A stretch of DNA of 23,314 nt from positions 1-23,314 of the IMG/VR virus record IMGVR_UViG_3300021598_000285. One strand, written 5' to 3'. This document shows positions 7,300 through 11,513 of the stretch, piece after piece. A program made the position numbers and the translations under genes. The notes below the pieces were generated by a model, which saw nothing but the letters and a program-made list of their open reading frames with translations, was not told where the DNA came from and ran no database searches. Numbering within the stretch: the stretch's first letter is position 1; each line of letters starts with the position of its first letter. This stretch comes from a virus.

Positions 7300-8181
7300 C
7301 TAAAATTTAAAATTATTTGGTTTTGGTGTTCTCATTTCTTTTAACGGGTTGATTCCGTAAACTTCAAAACCTAACCCCGAGTTAAAATTACATAAAATTT
7401 GGTCGTTTATTCCCGTATGCTTCCCGCCCGTTTCCATATCTTTTACTTTTTCAACTCCTATCATTGTGTTATATTTCATCGTTTCGTGTTTAATTAGCCT
7501 GTGAATAACAAACATATCATCGCATCTATTTAGAAAAGCCTTCCCGCCTTCTATGTGGTCTTTAAGTGGTGGTTTTAAGTGTCCTTTAAAATCTCCGTCC
7601 GTGTATAAATTTGCGCTTCTTCCACTTTCAGTATTTGGGTGCGTGTTTATGTAGATAGTCATACCCGTTTTATTTACGAATTCCCGCGCCTTATTCATAA
7701 ACGTGTAATTACCTTCGTAAGTCATTTCGCGGTCTAATCCTGTGAACGGGTCTATTAAACCGACATCGCATTTGGACTTAGAAAAGATTTCCAAAAGTTC
7801 CAACGGCTTGTAAAGTTTGCTATTATCCACAAAGTAGAAAAATTGTTCTAGGTAAGCGGAATAGGAATGTATTTGGTTTGTCGTTAGATTCTTAAATGGT
7901 TCGCCACTATACATTTGTATTAAATCCCGCAGTATTTGTCCTTTTTGATTTTCTCCCGACCATATGCAGAATTTAAGTCCGTGTTTTAATGCAAGGACAA
8001 GGAAGTACCAAAACACCCAATAAGTTTTACCTACGTTATCGTGTCCGAGAATTATATTTAGTTGCTTAGGCTTGAATCGTAAATAATCGTCTAACACGCA
8101 GTCAATTTTTAAGCCTTGTTGAATCTTACCTTCTTTGTAATCTAGTAGGTATTGTAAGCTATCCCCTTGTTTAGTCAGCAT
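7300..8181 (-). CDS. RecA/DnaB-like ATPase, probable replicative helicase
   Basis: A 293-residue P-loop protein. Walker A is GHDNVGKT at residues 46-53 in ILGHDNVGKTYWVFWYFL, Walker B is VGLIDPFTG around 140-148, and YINTHPN near 175-182 is like the sensor strand of RecA-fold ATPases. The arrangement KPKQLNIILGHDNVGK resembles the core of DnaB-like and RepA-like hexameric helicases, but there is no DnaB N-terminal domain, so it may act as a small helicase or loader. It overlaps the DUF6291-like gene by 11 nt; phages of this group often pair the two in replication. A RadA-like recombination role cannot be excluded. Confidence 0.75.
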   Translation of the reverse strand: MLTKQGDSLQYLLDYKEGKIQQGLKIDCVLDDYLRFKPKQLNIILGHDNVGKTYWVFWYFLVLALKHGLKFCIWSGENQKGQILRDLIQMYSGEPFKNLTTNQIHSYSAYLEQFFYFVDNSKLYKPLELLEIFSKSKCDVGLIDPFTGLDREMTYEGNYTFMNKAREFVNKTGMTIYINTHPNTESGRSANLYTDGDFKGHLKPPLKDHIEGGKAFLNRCDDMFVIHRLIKHETMKYNTMIGVEKVKDMETGGKHTGINDQILCNFNSGLGFEVYGINPLKEMRTPKPNNFKF

Positions 8182-8770
8182 TTTTGTAGTCTTTAGTGTC
8201 CTTCCAATTTAACTTCGCTAATATGTTTGCGGTTTGTTGCAGGTCGTCCGATAGTTCGTTAGGGTTAATTTTGCGAATATAAGGTAACGTGTTTAAAATA
8301 GTTGATTTCCAATTTAGAATTTTTTTGTTCTTACCTTTTACGTTAGTACACCAATCGTTTACCTTCCAACTTTCATACTTTAATCGTAGTTCGTTTTTAT
8401 CTGCGGTTGGTTCTTTACTAATTGCATAAGCTATAAACTCTTCGCAAGAAGGTATAACATTTACATTATCATTTACATTATCATTTACATTAGCTTCGCT
8501 TTTGCTTATTTCTTGCTTCGGTTTTGCTTCGCTTTTGCTTTCGGTGTGCTTTGTTTTAGGTTTGCTTCCGTTTACGAATTTCTTGTAGTTTGCTTCTAAT
8601 TGGGGTGCAATCAACGTAAAGATAGTTTTACTAATTCCTTCTAACTGAATGGTTTTCCCGTTTAATCCTAACTCATAAACTGCGCTCCATACTTCGGCTT
8701 GGTTTTCTTTTGGAAGTTCCTTAATTGCTTCGTAGAAACTTCGGTAAATAATCATTGAATCTCTTTTCAT
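8171..8770 (-). CDS. DUF6291-like replication protein
   Basis: I chose the ATG at 8770 (MKRDSMIIYRSFYEAIKELP) because an in-frame ATG at 8821 would place the first 17 residues inside a strong terminator-like hairpin. The 199-residue product has an N-terminal helical domain with SFYEAIKEL and ISKTIFTLIAPQLEANYKKF, a Lys/Ser-rich linker, a tandem NVND repeat (about residues 94-105) and a C-terminal domain with WKVNDWCTN and NWKSTILNTLPYI. This build, a DnaD-like or DUF6291 head with a WKSTILNTL tail, is typical of phage replication initiators or helicase loaders. The ATPase downstream overlaps it by 11 nt. Function is inferred from context. Confidence 0.65.
   Translation of the reverse strand: MKRDSMIIYRSFYEAIKELPKENQAEVWSAVYELGLNGKTIQLEGISKTIFTLIAPQLEANYKKFVNGSKPKTKHTESKSEAKPKQEISKSEANVNDNVNDNVNVIPSCEEFIAYAISKEPTADKNELRLKYESWKVNDWCTNVKGKNKKILNWKSTILNTLPYIRKINPNELSDDLQQTANILAKLNWKDTKDYKNAD
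8456..8497. repeat. Tandem 12-bp microsatellite inside a gene
   Basis: The plus strand repeats ACATTATCATTT with slight end variation about three times. It encodes the NVNDNVNDNVN linker of the DUF6291-like protein. Because the unit is a multiple of three, copy number can change without breaking the frame. Confidence 0.8.
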
Positions 8771-8778
8771 AGGTACAT

Positions 8779-8828
8779 AAAAAAACCCCATTAGGTTTCG
8801 CGGTGCAGCACTACTCCCCAATGAGGTT
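8779..8828 (-). terminator. Terminator-like hairpin in the leader of the replication gene
   Basis: In minus-strand RNA, AACCUCAUUGGG (from 8828) can pair with CCUAAUGGGGUU (down to 8784), giving a 12-bp stem with two G-U wobbles. A 21-nt loop contains the self-complementary GUGCUGCAC. Seven U residues follow at 8779-8785. The ATG of the replication gene is only 8 nt past the U run, so this is either the end of the upstream DnaA-like transcript or an attenuator in the leader. Confidence 0.65.
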
Positions 8829-8877: not shown

Positions 8878-9285
8878 TTAATTCAATATTTGTTCATTTT
8901 CGTAAAATTTTATTTGATATTCCCCGCGTCTTATTCGTTCTTGAATGTGTTCAAGGTCTTTTAAGCCTCCTGCGTTTTTAACGTCTAGGTATAAATCATT
9001 CATCGTTCTGTTAACCTTAAAGTTATTCATTGCTGCGCGAAGGTGTTCCGTATCGTTGTAAAAGTGCCTATCGTTTATAGATTCCCAAAGGTTCGCATTG
9101 TTAAAAGCGTGAATGCAGGTAGCGTGGTTAAGCCCTAACATTTCGCCGATTTCTATATACGAGAATCCGTACCCGCGCATTAATTTAATTAGGTAACCGC
9201 GTTGGTTTACATACTTTCGTTTTCTGCTCCGTTTGCGAAGGTCGTTTGTTTCTATTAAGTCCGTGAATTTGTTTTTTAGTTGCAT
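8878..9285 (-). CDS. DnaA domain-IV-like DNA-binding protein
   Basis: A 135-residue protein. Residues 20-66 resemble the C-terminal DNA-binding domain of DnaA: a basic stretch (RKRSRKRKYVNQRGYLIKLM) and then a helix-turn-helix core GFSYIEIGEMLGLNHATCIH with AFNNA, comparable to the DnaA signature in which an H-T/A-T turn contacts the DnaA box. The ATPase domain of DnaA is absent. Residues 67-135 are helical and charged (NDLYLDVKNAGGLKDLEHIQ and a YQIKFYENEQILN tail). It could recruit replication to a phage origin or act as a repressor. Its gene lies directly upstream of the replication genes, which supports an origin-binding role. Confidence 0.6.
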   Translation of the reverse strand: MQLKNKFTDLIETNDLRKRSRKRKYVNQRGYLIKLMRGYGFSYIEIGEMLGLNHATCIHAFNNANLWESINDRHFYNDTEHLRAAMNNFKVNRTMNDLYLDVKNAGGLKDLEHIQERIRRGEYQIKFYENEQILN

Positions 9286-10129: not shown

Positions 10130-10180
10130 AGCGTTTAATTAAATGTGCGTTACGGATGCGCACCCCCCGTTTTGTTATTA
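10130..10180 (-). promoter_or_regulatory. Leader element with GTGCG/CGCAC hairpin (copy A)
   Basis: On the minus strand, directly after the stop of the 92-residue gene, GGGGTGCG, a 9-nt loop and CGCAC pair 10145-10149 with 10159-10163. An AT-rich spacer and ACGCTATG follow. The layout and many bases are the same as in copy B before ERF, including TAACGCAC and the upstream TAATAA. Confidence 0.5.
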
Positions 10181-10456
10181 AAATCGTAATTCTATGTTTT
10201 GATTTACACCCATTGCAGGCAAAAAATTATATAACCCTTTTTCAAAATTATCATTTAATTTCGCTTCAATTTCTTTTTTTGTAAACCCTGTAAATTCATC
10301 TATTTGAGTTTCAAAAGTTTGCTGTATCATTGTTACATTTTCAGGAGTTCCAAATAAAGACCATAATAATTTTTCATTTGCAGATGGAATAAATAAAACA
10401 TCATTTTTATAATACTCTATTCCTGTTTCTACGTGTACTAATGTTGCTGTTTTCAT
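10178..10456 (-). CDS. Hypothetical first gene of the early operon
   Basis: A 92-residue protein beginning MKTATLVHVETGIEYYKNDV, with FIPSANEKLLWSLFGTPEN and TGFTKKEIEAKLNDNFEKGL. The mixed pattern gives no recognised family. It is the first gene after a well-formed promoter at 10493-10524 and a repeat-rich region, so it is probably the first protein made from this unit. The gene is AT-rich with few CG dinucleotides compared with the genes after it. Confidence 0.6.
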   Translation of the reverse strand: MKTATLVHVETGIEYYKNDVLFIPSANEKLLWSLFGTPENVTMIQQTFETQIDEFTGFTKKEIEAKLNDNFEKGLYNFLPAMGVNQNIELRF

Positions 10457-10524: not shown

Positions 10525-10572
10525 CTTTTTAACAAATTTTTTTCACTTTTCTACAAATTTATAATGATTCTA

Positions 10573-10633
10573 AATAAGGAATAAGGGAATAACCTTAAAT
10601 AATCTCAATAAAAATAAGGGGATAATCTTAAAT
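10573..10633. repeat. Imperfect direct repeats with internal dyads (possible operators)
   Basis: Two 21-bp repeats at 10580-10600 and 10613-10633 differ at two positions. Both read AATAAGGG at one end and CTTAAAT at the other, with start-to-start spacing of 33 bp, about three helical turns. Each holds an internal dyad; in the first, TAAGG and CCTTA are perfect. A partial third copy, AATAAGG, lies at 10573-10579. They sit upstream of the early promoter. Confidence 0.6.
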
Positions 10634-10676
10634 TAGGTGCGTTCGTGTATAAAAAAACGAATTCTTTTTACCTAAT
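10632..10676. repeat. Nested inverted repeat between operator-like repeats and late terminator
   Basis: ATTAGGT (10632-10638) is the reverse complement of ACCTAAT (10670-10676), and inside it TTCGT (10642-10646) pairs with ACGAA (10657-10661). It may form an RNA or DNA hairpin; there is no U run of terminator quality after the weaker inner stem. Confidence 0.4.
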
Positions 10677-10682
10677 GGATAT

Positions 10683-10707
10683 AAAAAAAGGGGATATTTC
10701 TATCCCC
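10683..10707 (-). terminator. Rho-independent terminator of the late region
   Basis: The minus strand reads GGGGATA, GAAA, TATCCCC, then TTTTTTT. The 7-bp stem with a stable tetraloop and seven T residues lies about 20 nt after the stop of the metallophosphoesterase gene (10728), closing the late unit. Confidence 0.85.
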
Positions 10708-10727
10708 CTAAACGCTATGTCGCTAAA

Positions 10728-11513
10728 TTACAACGGAAATTTAAAAGAATCTATGTTCTTTACTAATGAGTTATCAACTTCTTTACATTCAATTTTCAAG
10801 ATTCTACCGCCTAATGGCTTTGGCGGTGCGCCCCTTTCAACGTGCCAACCGAACGCGCCTTCGCCGTATTCTTCTTTGTATGTACCCGTGAGCATTAAAT
10901 GTAATTGACGTTGTTTAACTGAATAACCTTTTTTTGCGTTGTGGTTAACGCATTCTCTAACGTCGTTACGCGAACTATTTTCGTGTATGTGTCCCATACT
11001 AAACACGTCGAAATCTTCGTACATTTCAAGGGAACGAGTAAGGTTTAACGCTCCTTTAGTAACTACACCACCACCACCCGAGCCGTGGTAATATTTTACT
11101 TTAGTGGTTATGTTACAATTTCCGTAAATAGTTTGTTTAATAATTACCCAACCACCATACCCGCCCGTTTGAACGTTTGAAGAACATTTATAGTTAAGTA
11201 AATCAACGAACCTACGGAGTAAATCCGTTTCTTGATATTTGATTATGCTTGTTTCGTGGTTACGTGTATTATTATGTTCGGGACGTAGGTTTTTGCTTCG
11301 TCTTGCATCCCCACGGCCTTCCATTAAACAAAAGAAGTCCCCATTTATTATTACAGGAATCCCGTTATCGTTGCAAAAGTCAAGGTGCTTCCTTAATAGT
11401 TGCCAATCGCATTTAGGGTTATCCCAATGTAAATCCGAAAGCATAGCTACGTGCACTTGCGTACCCACTAATTGTAATTCGTGGATATTTTTTCCGTGTT
11501 TTATTACATTCAT
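10728..11513 (-). CDS. Calcineurin-like metallophosphoesterase
   Basis: I chose the ATG at 11513 (MNVIKHGKNIHELQLVGTQV), just after the u-spanin stop; an earlier in-frame ATG at 11630 would overlap that gene deeply with a non-coding-looking extension. The 261-residue enzyme has the metal-binding signature D27-L-H29 in MLSDLHWD, then PVIINGDFFC (GD motif), later KYYHGSGGGG and FSMGHIHENS (GHxH). An exact GNHE motif is missing; RNHETS may serve instead. Such enzymes hydrolyse phosphoesters, including nucleic acids. It is the last gene of the late region, after the lysis genes, an uncommon place. The substrate cannot be read from the sequence. Confidence 0.75.
   Translation of the reverse strand: MNVIKHGKNIHELQLVGTQVHVAMLSDLHWDNPKCDWQLLRKHLDFCNDNGIPVIINGDFFCLMEGRGDARRSKNLRPEHNNTRNHETSIIKYQETDLLRRFVDLLNYKCSSNVQTGGYGGWVIIKQTIYGNCNITTKVKYYHGSGGGGVVTKGALNLTRSLEMYEDFDVFSMGHIHENSSRNDVRECVNHNAKKGYSVKQRQLHLMLTGTYKEEYGEGAFGWHVERGAPPKPLGGRILKIECKEVDNSLVKNIDSFKFPL

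Follow-up and report, generated by a model that had tools for sequence, protein, structure and literature searches.

What is the role of two near-identical palindromic repeats that stand between the terminator of one phage operon and the promoter of the next? The sequence analysed here (the window) is the 23,314-base IMG/VR contig IMGVR_UViG_3300021598_000285, from a source called an uncultured Bacteroidota phage. Its likely genes lie on the minus strand, and no tRNA gene was found in it. Read along transcription, the metallophosphoesterase-like gene (10728-11513, minus strand; PHROG 7339, DNA repair exonuclease) ends at 10728 and is followed by a terminator (10709-10688), a nested inverted repeat (10676-10632), box 2 (10630-10615), box 1 (10597-10582), a 17-bp palindrome (10574-10558), an AT-rich stretch and a promoter (10524-10493). 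The initial annotation of this DNA had placed the repeats between a late terminator and an early promoter, and both were found: an intrinsic terminator on the minus strand at 10688-10709, at the end of the upstream (late) operon, and, beyond the repeats on the same strand, a Bacteroidota-type promoter composed of TTTG (10524-10521), 20 bp and TATATTTG (10500-10493), in which we take TTG to be the -33 element. The -7 element TATATTTG matches the TAnnTTTG box of F. psychrophilum as given in the accessible text of PMC9723704.

The first gene after this promoter encodes a protein of 92 aa (10178-10456, minus strand) with no PHROG and no Pfam family over the cut-off, and the viral collection has a close homologue of it at just 5 loci. 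The gene in this slot differs between close relatives, and a small family with the pattern AYExEL...AFGH recurs in it in many carriers of the repeats. The subsequent early genes encode a DnaA domain IV-like protein (8878-9285, minus strand; PF08299, E 1.7e-7), a DUF6291 protein (8171-8821) and a primase/helicase-like protein. Elsewhere in the window, 3712-4539 matches the N6/N4 DNA methylase family and 2088-2690 resembles a second methylase by reading of its sequence.

The pair consists of a first 21-bp repeat, AATAAGGGAATAACCTTAAAT (10580-10600, plus strand), and a second, AATAAGGGGATAATCTTAAAT (10613-10633, plus strand), which starts 33 bp further on and is identical to the first at 19 of 21 positions, as had been annotated. 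When the 271-nt intergenic stretch was dinucleotide-shuffled, none of 300 shuffles reached 19/21 within 60 bp (best match 14.5 on average and 18 at most), and TRF reports the 33-bp period at 10569-10633 with a score of 93. The internal dyads described earlier are also there: box 1, the 16-bp palindrome TAAGGGAATAACCTTA (10582-10597), is a perfect TAAGG-N6-CCTTA, and box 2, TAAGGGGATAATCTTA (10615-10630, its start 33 bp from that of box 1), reads TAAGG-N6-TCTTA with one mismatch. Taken singly such a dyad is statistically weak, with three matches of at most one mismatch in the window against 0.94 expected and 6 of 100 shuffles doing equally well, and a palindrome scan with TTTAGAATNATTMTAAATT proved too unspecific for use alone. 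As for the partial third copy once proposed, AATAAGG is present at 10573-10579 (plus strand), in a TRF row of 8-bp period (10573-10592), but it amounts to these letters only and is marginal.

Relatives were collected with three window proteins, the metallophosphoesterase-like one among them, which yielded 111 loci, many of them overlapping since the queries share contigs. With at most two mismatches the pair occurs in 26 of these 111 partly overlapping loci, and in all 26 the spacing is exactly 33. The intergenic region after the metallophosphoesterase gene, read in 70 distinct forms with the window included, is a patchwork: window-like forms (type A) retain the pair, type A′ forms carry TAAGTTTATACGCTTA-like boxes at a spacing that is still 33, type B forms have a conserved stretch around ACGCTTGAAAATCAACGAGTTA in place of the pair, and the remaining forms show unrelated repeats or nothing. 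In types B and C the pair is absent anywhere in same-clade contigs of 25-30 kb. Comparison with relatives, proposed earlier as the means of refuting a function, thus finds the repeats conserved as an element, which some close relatives have lost or altered. None of the 22 window genes compared across 19 loci tracks the site type. In the typing used for the comparison with the DnaA-like protein, 330 nt were examined; the pair of one locus (L076) lies beyond that length and was scored there as absent, although the mismatch-tolerant scan shows it.

The surroundings of the pair show further variation. A 17-bp palindrome (10558-10574; TTTATAATGATTCTAAA, sense TTTAGAATCATTATAAA) follows a pattern, TTTAGAATNATTNTAAA, that is retained in 27 of 70 homologous intergenic regions; palindromes of this type number 9 in the 1.05 Mb of pair-scan loci, 5 of them within 80 nt of a pair, among the matches listed. 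This palindrome, TTTAGAATNATTCTAAA, sits between the pair and the promoter, and we presume it to be shaped like a Fur/PerR 7-1-7 box. In L089, L017, L019, L093 and L063 an extra dyad, TGTCGCAA...TTGCGACA, lies between the boxes and the palindrome and resembles a small inserted cassette. Behind the metallophosphoesterase gene of L008 a different dyad, GTGATTATCAC / GTGATTTTCAC, 30 bp apart, replaces the pair, as if the module were exchangeable for another binding specificity, and the intergenic regions of L038 and L043 hold runs of 11-bp units (ATCTAAAGTTT type) at the pair's position. Bacterial genomes scanned with the metallophosphoesterase gave, among the matches listed, one phage-like contig, L232 (RFNS01000086.1), which belongs to an alphaproteobacterial genome bin, encodes a metallophosphoesterase relative (57%) and is probably a mis-binned phage fragment.

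Viral contigs were also scanned for two exact TAAGG-N6-CCTTA dyads at start spacings of 18-48, which gave at least 120 loci, a sample that is not random. Among the 120 matches listed, the spacing is 33 in 64, 32 in 36, 29 in 8 and another value in 12, and the flanks fall into 39 families mutually unmatched by blastn, the largest with 44 members. Pairs at spacing 32 or 33 lie outside any ORF of at least 100 aa in 93 of 100 listed cases. The number of matches alone proves little, because 100 loci were obtained with a control palindrome of equal composition as well. Of these, 97 are inside ORFs, 76 have a spacing of 39 with the rest also at multiples of three, and the loci translate to a repeat protein (LDGVTS). 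The control scan is hence not a clean negative, having met a coding repeat family, and it led us to measure coding overlap and flank families. The recurrence of the pair rests on its non-coding context, on the spacing of 32, which does not keep a reading frame, and on the unrelated flanks, and it is these that carry weight.

Every one of 45 records of 15-74 kb, drawn from 100 carriers among the matches listed, contains a single exact pair, and the flanking genes are co-directional in 89 of 100 listed loci. Of 70 unique oriented contexts of the listed matches, only 25 have the strict promoter motif TTG-N17-23-TAnnTTTG on the same strand no more than 250 nt downstream, as compared with 1 of 70 upstream; the opposite strand gives 0 and 2. 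Among these matches the -7 box lies between 60 and 209 bp from the site. Because the motif is biased to the downstream side over such a range, the site is tied to a promoter without keeping a fixed distance from it. Classical activators and repressors do not usually show such latitude.

The letters of the boxes are informative too. In 82 unique contexts (164 dyads) among the matches listed, N6 reads N-TATA-N, with 0.82-0.84 for each TATA base. Pairing at flank position 0 is somewhat above expectation (0.48 vs 0.35), whereas at positions -1 to -3 it is 0.30-0.34 against an expected 0.35-0.39, and N6 positions 6/11 pair below expectation (0.14 vs 0.32), all among the listed matches. Judged from sequence, this is what one expects of a DNA palindrome that binds a protein and not of an RNA stem.

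Carriers differ in gene content and in the place given to the pair. Among the 33 large carriers in the matches listed, which were read piecewise, the commonest protein cluster, a primase-helicase by its look, is present in 22. A cluster resembling the large terminase is found in 18, and one resembling portal proteins, which we take to be crAss-like, in 11. Depending on the lineage, the site stands before the replication genes, between TerL and the next gene, or beside the tape-measure gene. Since it adjoins late genes (TerL; tape measure) in two lineages, the promoter that it would control is not always an early one. We also considered a packaging site, given the adjacency to TerL in one lineage, and rejected it, as the carriers do not all have one terminase cluster in common; the top one is found in 18 of the 33 large carriers listed. 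None of 10 scanned records of cultured Flavobacteriia phages has the pair, which is therefore not a general feature of Bacteroidota phages. A DNA search with the window region matched no named phage, and plasmids gave no match. A seeming BLAST match to the pair in the gut phage record MT835565, the eleventh record scanned beside the cultured phages, was discarded, as only one dyad, with one mismatch, is present there. In the accessible literature on Flavobacterium phage early promoters, on Bacteroidetes phage origins and on the box strings, nothing could be linked to the element; the box string does occur within a PCR primer in the accessible part of PMC3799227.

Two minor groups stand apart among the matches listed. 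The eight pairs at spacing 29 (L245, L246, L255, L263, L307, L313, L336 and L347) are mostly the longer palindrome ATAAGG-N6-CCTTAT, possibly a second spacing class or the mark of another factor. Seven pairs are internal to ORFs: L256 and L286, which lie within a 277-aa ORF in records G017 and G044, and L267, L271, L318, L328 and L332. These seven stayed in the counts and may be chance or special cases.

The recurrence of a one-per-genome pair in many unrelated phages makes it probable that a DNA-binding protein lands there. Our preferred reading, to which we give close to even chances, is that the pair is a site for a dimer-of-dimers DNA-binding protein that acts on the adjacent promoter, the ligand being probably host-encoded. 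The two 16-bp palindromes of consensus TAAGGnTATAnCCTTA, with centres 32-33 bp (about three helix turns) apart, would form one bipartite binding site, to which two protein dimers, or one tetramer, would attach cooperatively from the same side of the helix. From its variable distance the bound protein would act on a sigma-A-type promoter by bending or looping rather than by overlap, and it may either activate or repress. In the window, this promoter would start the operon of the DnaA-like, initiator-like and helicase genes. The ligand would most likely be encoded by the bacterial host, because the same letters turn up in unrelated phages that have no protein family in common; alternatively it would be an undetected factor common to many phages, since carrier records are fragments in which a small or very divergent common phage protein could escape detection. 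A search of 10 early proteins near the site returned no DNA-binding Pfam family. What had been annotated as operator-like thus stands as regards a paired, promoter-side site at spacing 32/33, one per genome among the matches listed, where, as in operators generally, a palindromic motif adjoins a same-strand promoter, but not as regards its proposed DnaA ligand.

The closest known geometry is that of NrdR. In the accessible text of PMC12051234, each box of an NrdR pair is a 16-bp palindrome and the spacer measures 15-16 bp, 14-17 being tolerated, and the 16 + 17 + 16 bp of the window fit this spacer rule. The boxes have an AT-rich kinkable core and lie about three turns apart centre to centre (PMC12051234 and PMC9110341, as far as their accessible text goes), and GC pairs occupy box positions 4/13 in the accessible part of PMC9110341, which prints no orientation; here they are at 4/13 (G4/C13) and also at 5/12. 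Among the matches listed, spacers of 16-17 bp are found in 100 of 120 loci. The letters differ, however, with TAAGG..CCTTA here and ACAC..GTGT, with C4/G13, as the NrdR consensus. No RNR gene follows the window promoter, the first gene there being without a family over the cut-off. Furthermore, TIGR00244 (NrdR) is found in 9 of 14 control genomes and not in the single Bacteroidota control. In the accessible literature, NrdR in combination with phage brought up unrelated papers only. We therefore rejected NrdR as the ligand, since its geometry fits and its letters, gene context and phylum do not, and we keep it as a model of how the pair can work, not as a classification. The LexA-like SOS boxes of Bacteroidetes, GGA-N5-TCC and CTAA-N5-TTAG in the accessible text of PMC8565304, likewise are palindromic operators of a Bacteroidota host repressor, but their spacer length and letters misfit the pair and that text gives no tandem rule.

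The alternative that survives best is a replication origin, in which the pair would be two initiator-binding iterons beside an AT-rich promoter stretch that is melted or transcribed. We consider it unlikely, yet deserving of serious attention. As with plasmid or lambdoid iterons, short repeats occupy a single locus per genome beside AT-rich DNA, the downstream side being AT-richer than the upstream one (0.66-0.73 vs 0.62-0.70), and, of 16 large records with a DnaA-like gene, 10 have it 0.7-2.2 kb downstream of the site, in each respect among the matches listed. However, there are just two palindromic copies here and not an array of asymmetric direct repeats, the pair is dispensable, being lost from relatives of 25-30 kb, and no initiator cluster is common to the carriers listed. 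In L090 the boxes are the same and the initiator-like DUF6291 gene has been replaced (26% identity to 8171-8821). Sites within 5% of the record length of a GC-skew extreme number 8 of 33 among the matches listed, where we estimate about 6-7 at random. Replication iterons, the second function suggested in the initial annotation, thereby gain no positive support: there is no GC-skew association, the pair is missing from the 25-30 kb relatives and the initiator-like gene is swapped. That gene (8171-8821) also carries repeats of its own, tandem units of 12, 11 and 16 bp at 8458-8567, beside the helicase-like gene. An initiator gene with internal repeats that serve as origin is an arrangement known from lambda, and the repeats at 8458-8567 are a candidate for a lambda-like origin, or merely encode a low-complexity protein linker. 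If the pair were nonetheless the origin, it would provide a simple sequence signature for the origins of unculturable phages.

Could the boxes be bound by the DnaA domain IV-like protein that the phage itself encodes (8878-9285), as had been suggested? Its PF08299 match and the downstream position of such genes speak for it, as does the presence of PF08299 in 35 of the 100 carrier records listed, many of them short fragments. Nevertheless, the recognition stretch IGEMLGLNHATCIHAFNNAN is identical in loci with the site (the window, L089 and L093), in loci where the site is altered to TAAGTTTATACGCTTA (L107 and L013) and in loci without it (L094 and L091). Since IGEMLGLNHATCIHAFNNAN is the same across type A, type A′ and loci with no boxes, the DnaA-like protein does not follow the site. 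Moreover, 17 of the 33 large carriers listed have no DnaA-like homologue even by iterated profile, and the boxes read TAAGGnTATAnCCTTA, unlike the DnaA box, whose consensus, compared by eye, is TTATCCACA. The DnaA-like protein is an unlikely ligand, and we attach low probability to it. The small HTH-like protein (1871-2158), the other ligand put forward, fares no better: its homologues occur in 18 of 24 records irrespective of site type, 92-98% identical in type A′ and 55-59% in types A, B and C, so that all types carry it and it does not track the site.

Operators of a lysogeny-type phage repressor, of the CI/Cro kind, are very improbable. Such switches typically have paired dyads before an early promoter, and lambda-type tandem operators are repeated dyads by an early promoter that are bound cooperatively on one face. 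Among the matches listed, however, nearly all carriers are without integrase: PF00589 is found in 2 of the 44 records searched, the large carriers G017 and G044, both with ORF-internal pairs, and HTH_3 in 9 of 44 at E 0.01. The genes there are mostly co-directional, not divergent, and the boxes do not overlap the promoter but stand 60-209 bp from its -7 box. Near-constant letters recur in unrelated phages, unlike phage-specific operators. The window, itself a fragment, contains neither an integrase nor HTH_3.

The nested inverted repeat (10632-10676) described in the initial annotation is present in the window, where its RNA fold has z values of about -2.1 and -2.3 on the two strands, with 8 of 200 and 6 of 200 shuffles folding as well, strand by strand. 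In all 5 relatives that have the stretch, however, its arms are altered without compensation (inner TCCGT vs ACGAA, right outer arm changed), and it appears incidental and is probably non-functional as a hairpin. That the dyads act as hairpins in RNA or DNA, whether as tandem terminators, as put/nut-like antiterminators or as processing sites, is hardly credible. Two tandem inverted repeats do stand behind a terminator, and the adjoining nested repeat folds slightly better than shuffles, but the fold of the boxes does not surpass that of shuffles (z 0.18). Pairing past the 5-bp arms does not exceed expectation and is avoided at N6 positions 6/11, the loop is conserved as a TATA palindrome, no Rfam family was found in 14 sources, the nested repeat is not kept in relatives, and the boxes would be missing from the promoter's transcript because the promoter is downstream of them.

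A bipartite site for a probably host-encoded protein is hence the reading that we retain, and it can be taken a step further in a conjecture that we hold possible, though well short of an even bet. An undescribed regulator of Bacteroidota hosts may read TAAGGnTATAnCCTTA-N16/17-TAAGGnTATAnCCTTA, and unrelated, virulent-looking phages may each independently have placed one such site before a key operon; infection would then be gated by a signal from the host, be it nucleotide pool, stress or growth state. One-per-genome control sites common to unrelated phages are rare leads to host factors on which phages rely. If a host protein does bind it, the site would mark an unknown Bacteroidota regulator and, at the same time, a common choke point of many uncultured phages, some of them presumably with crAss-like gene sets.
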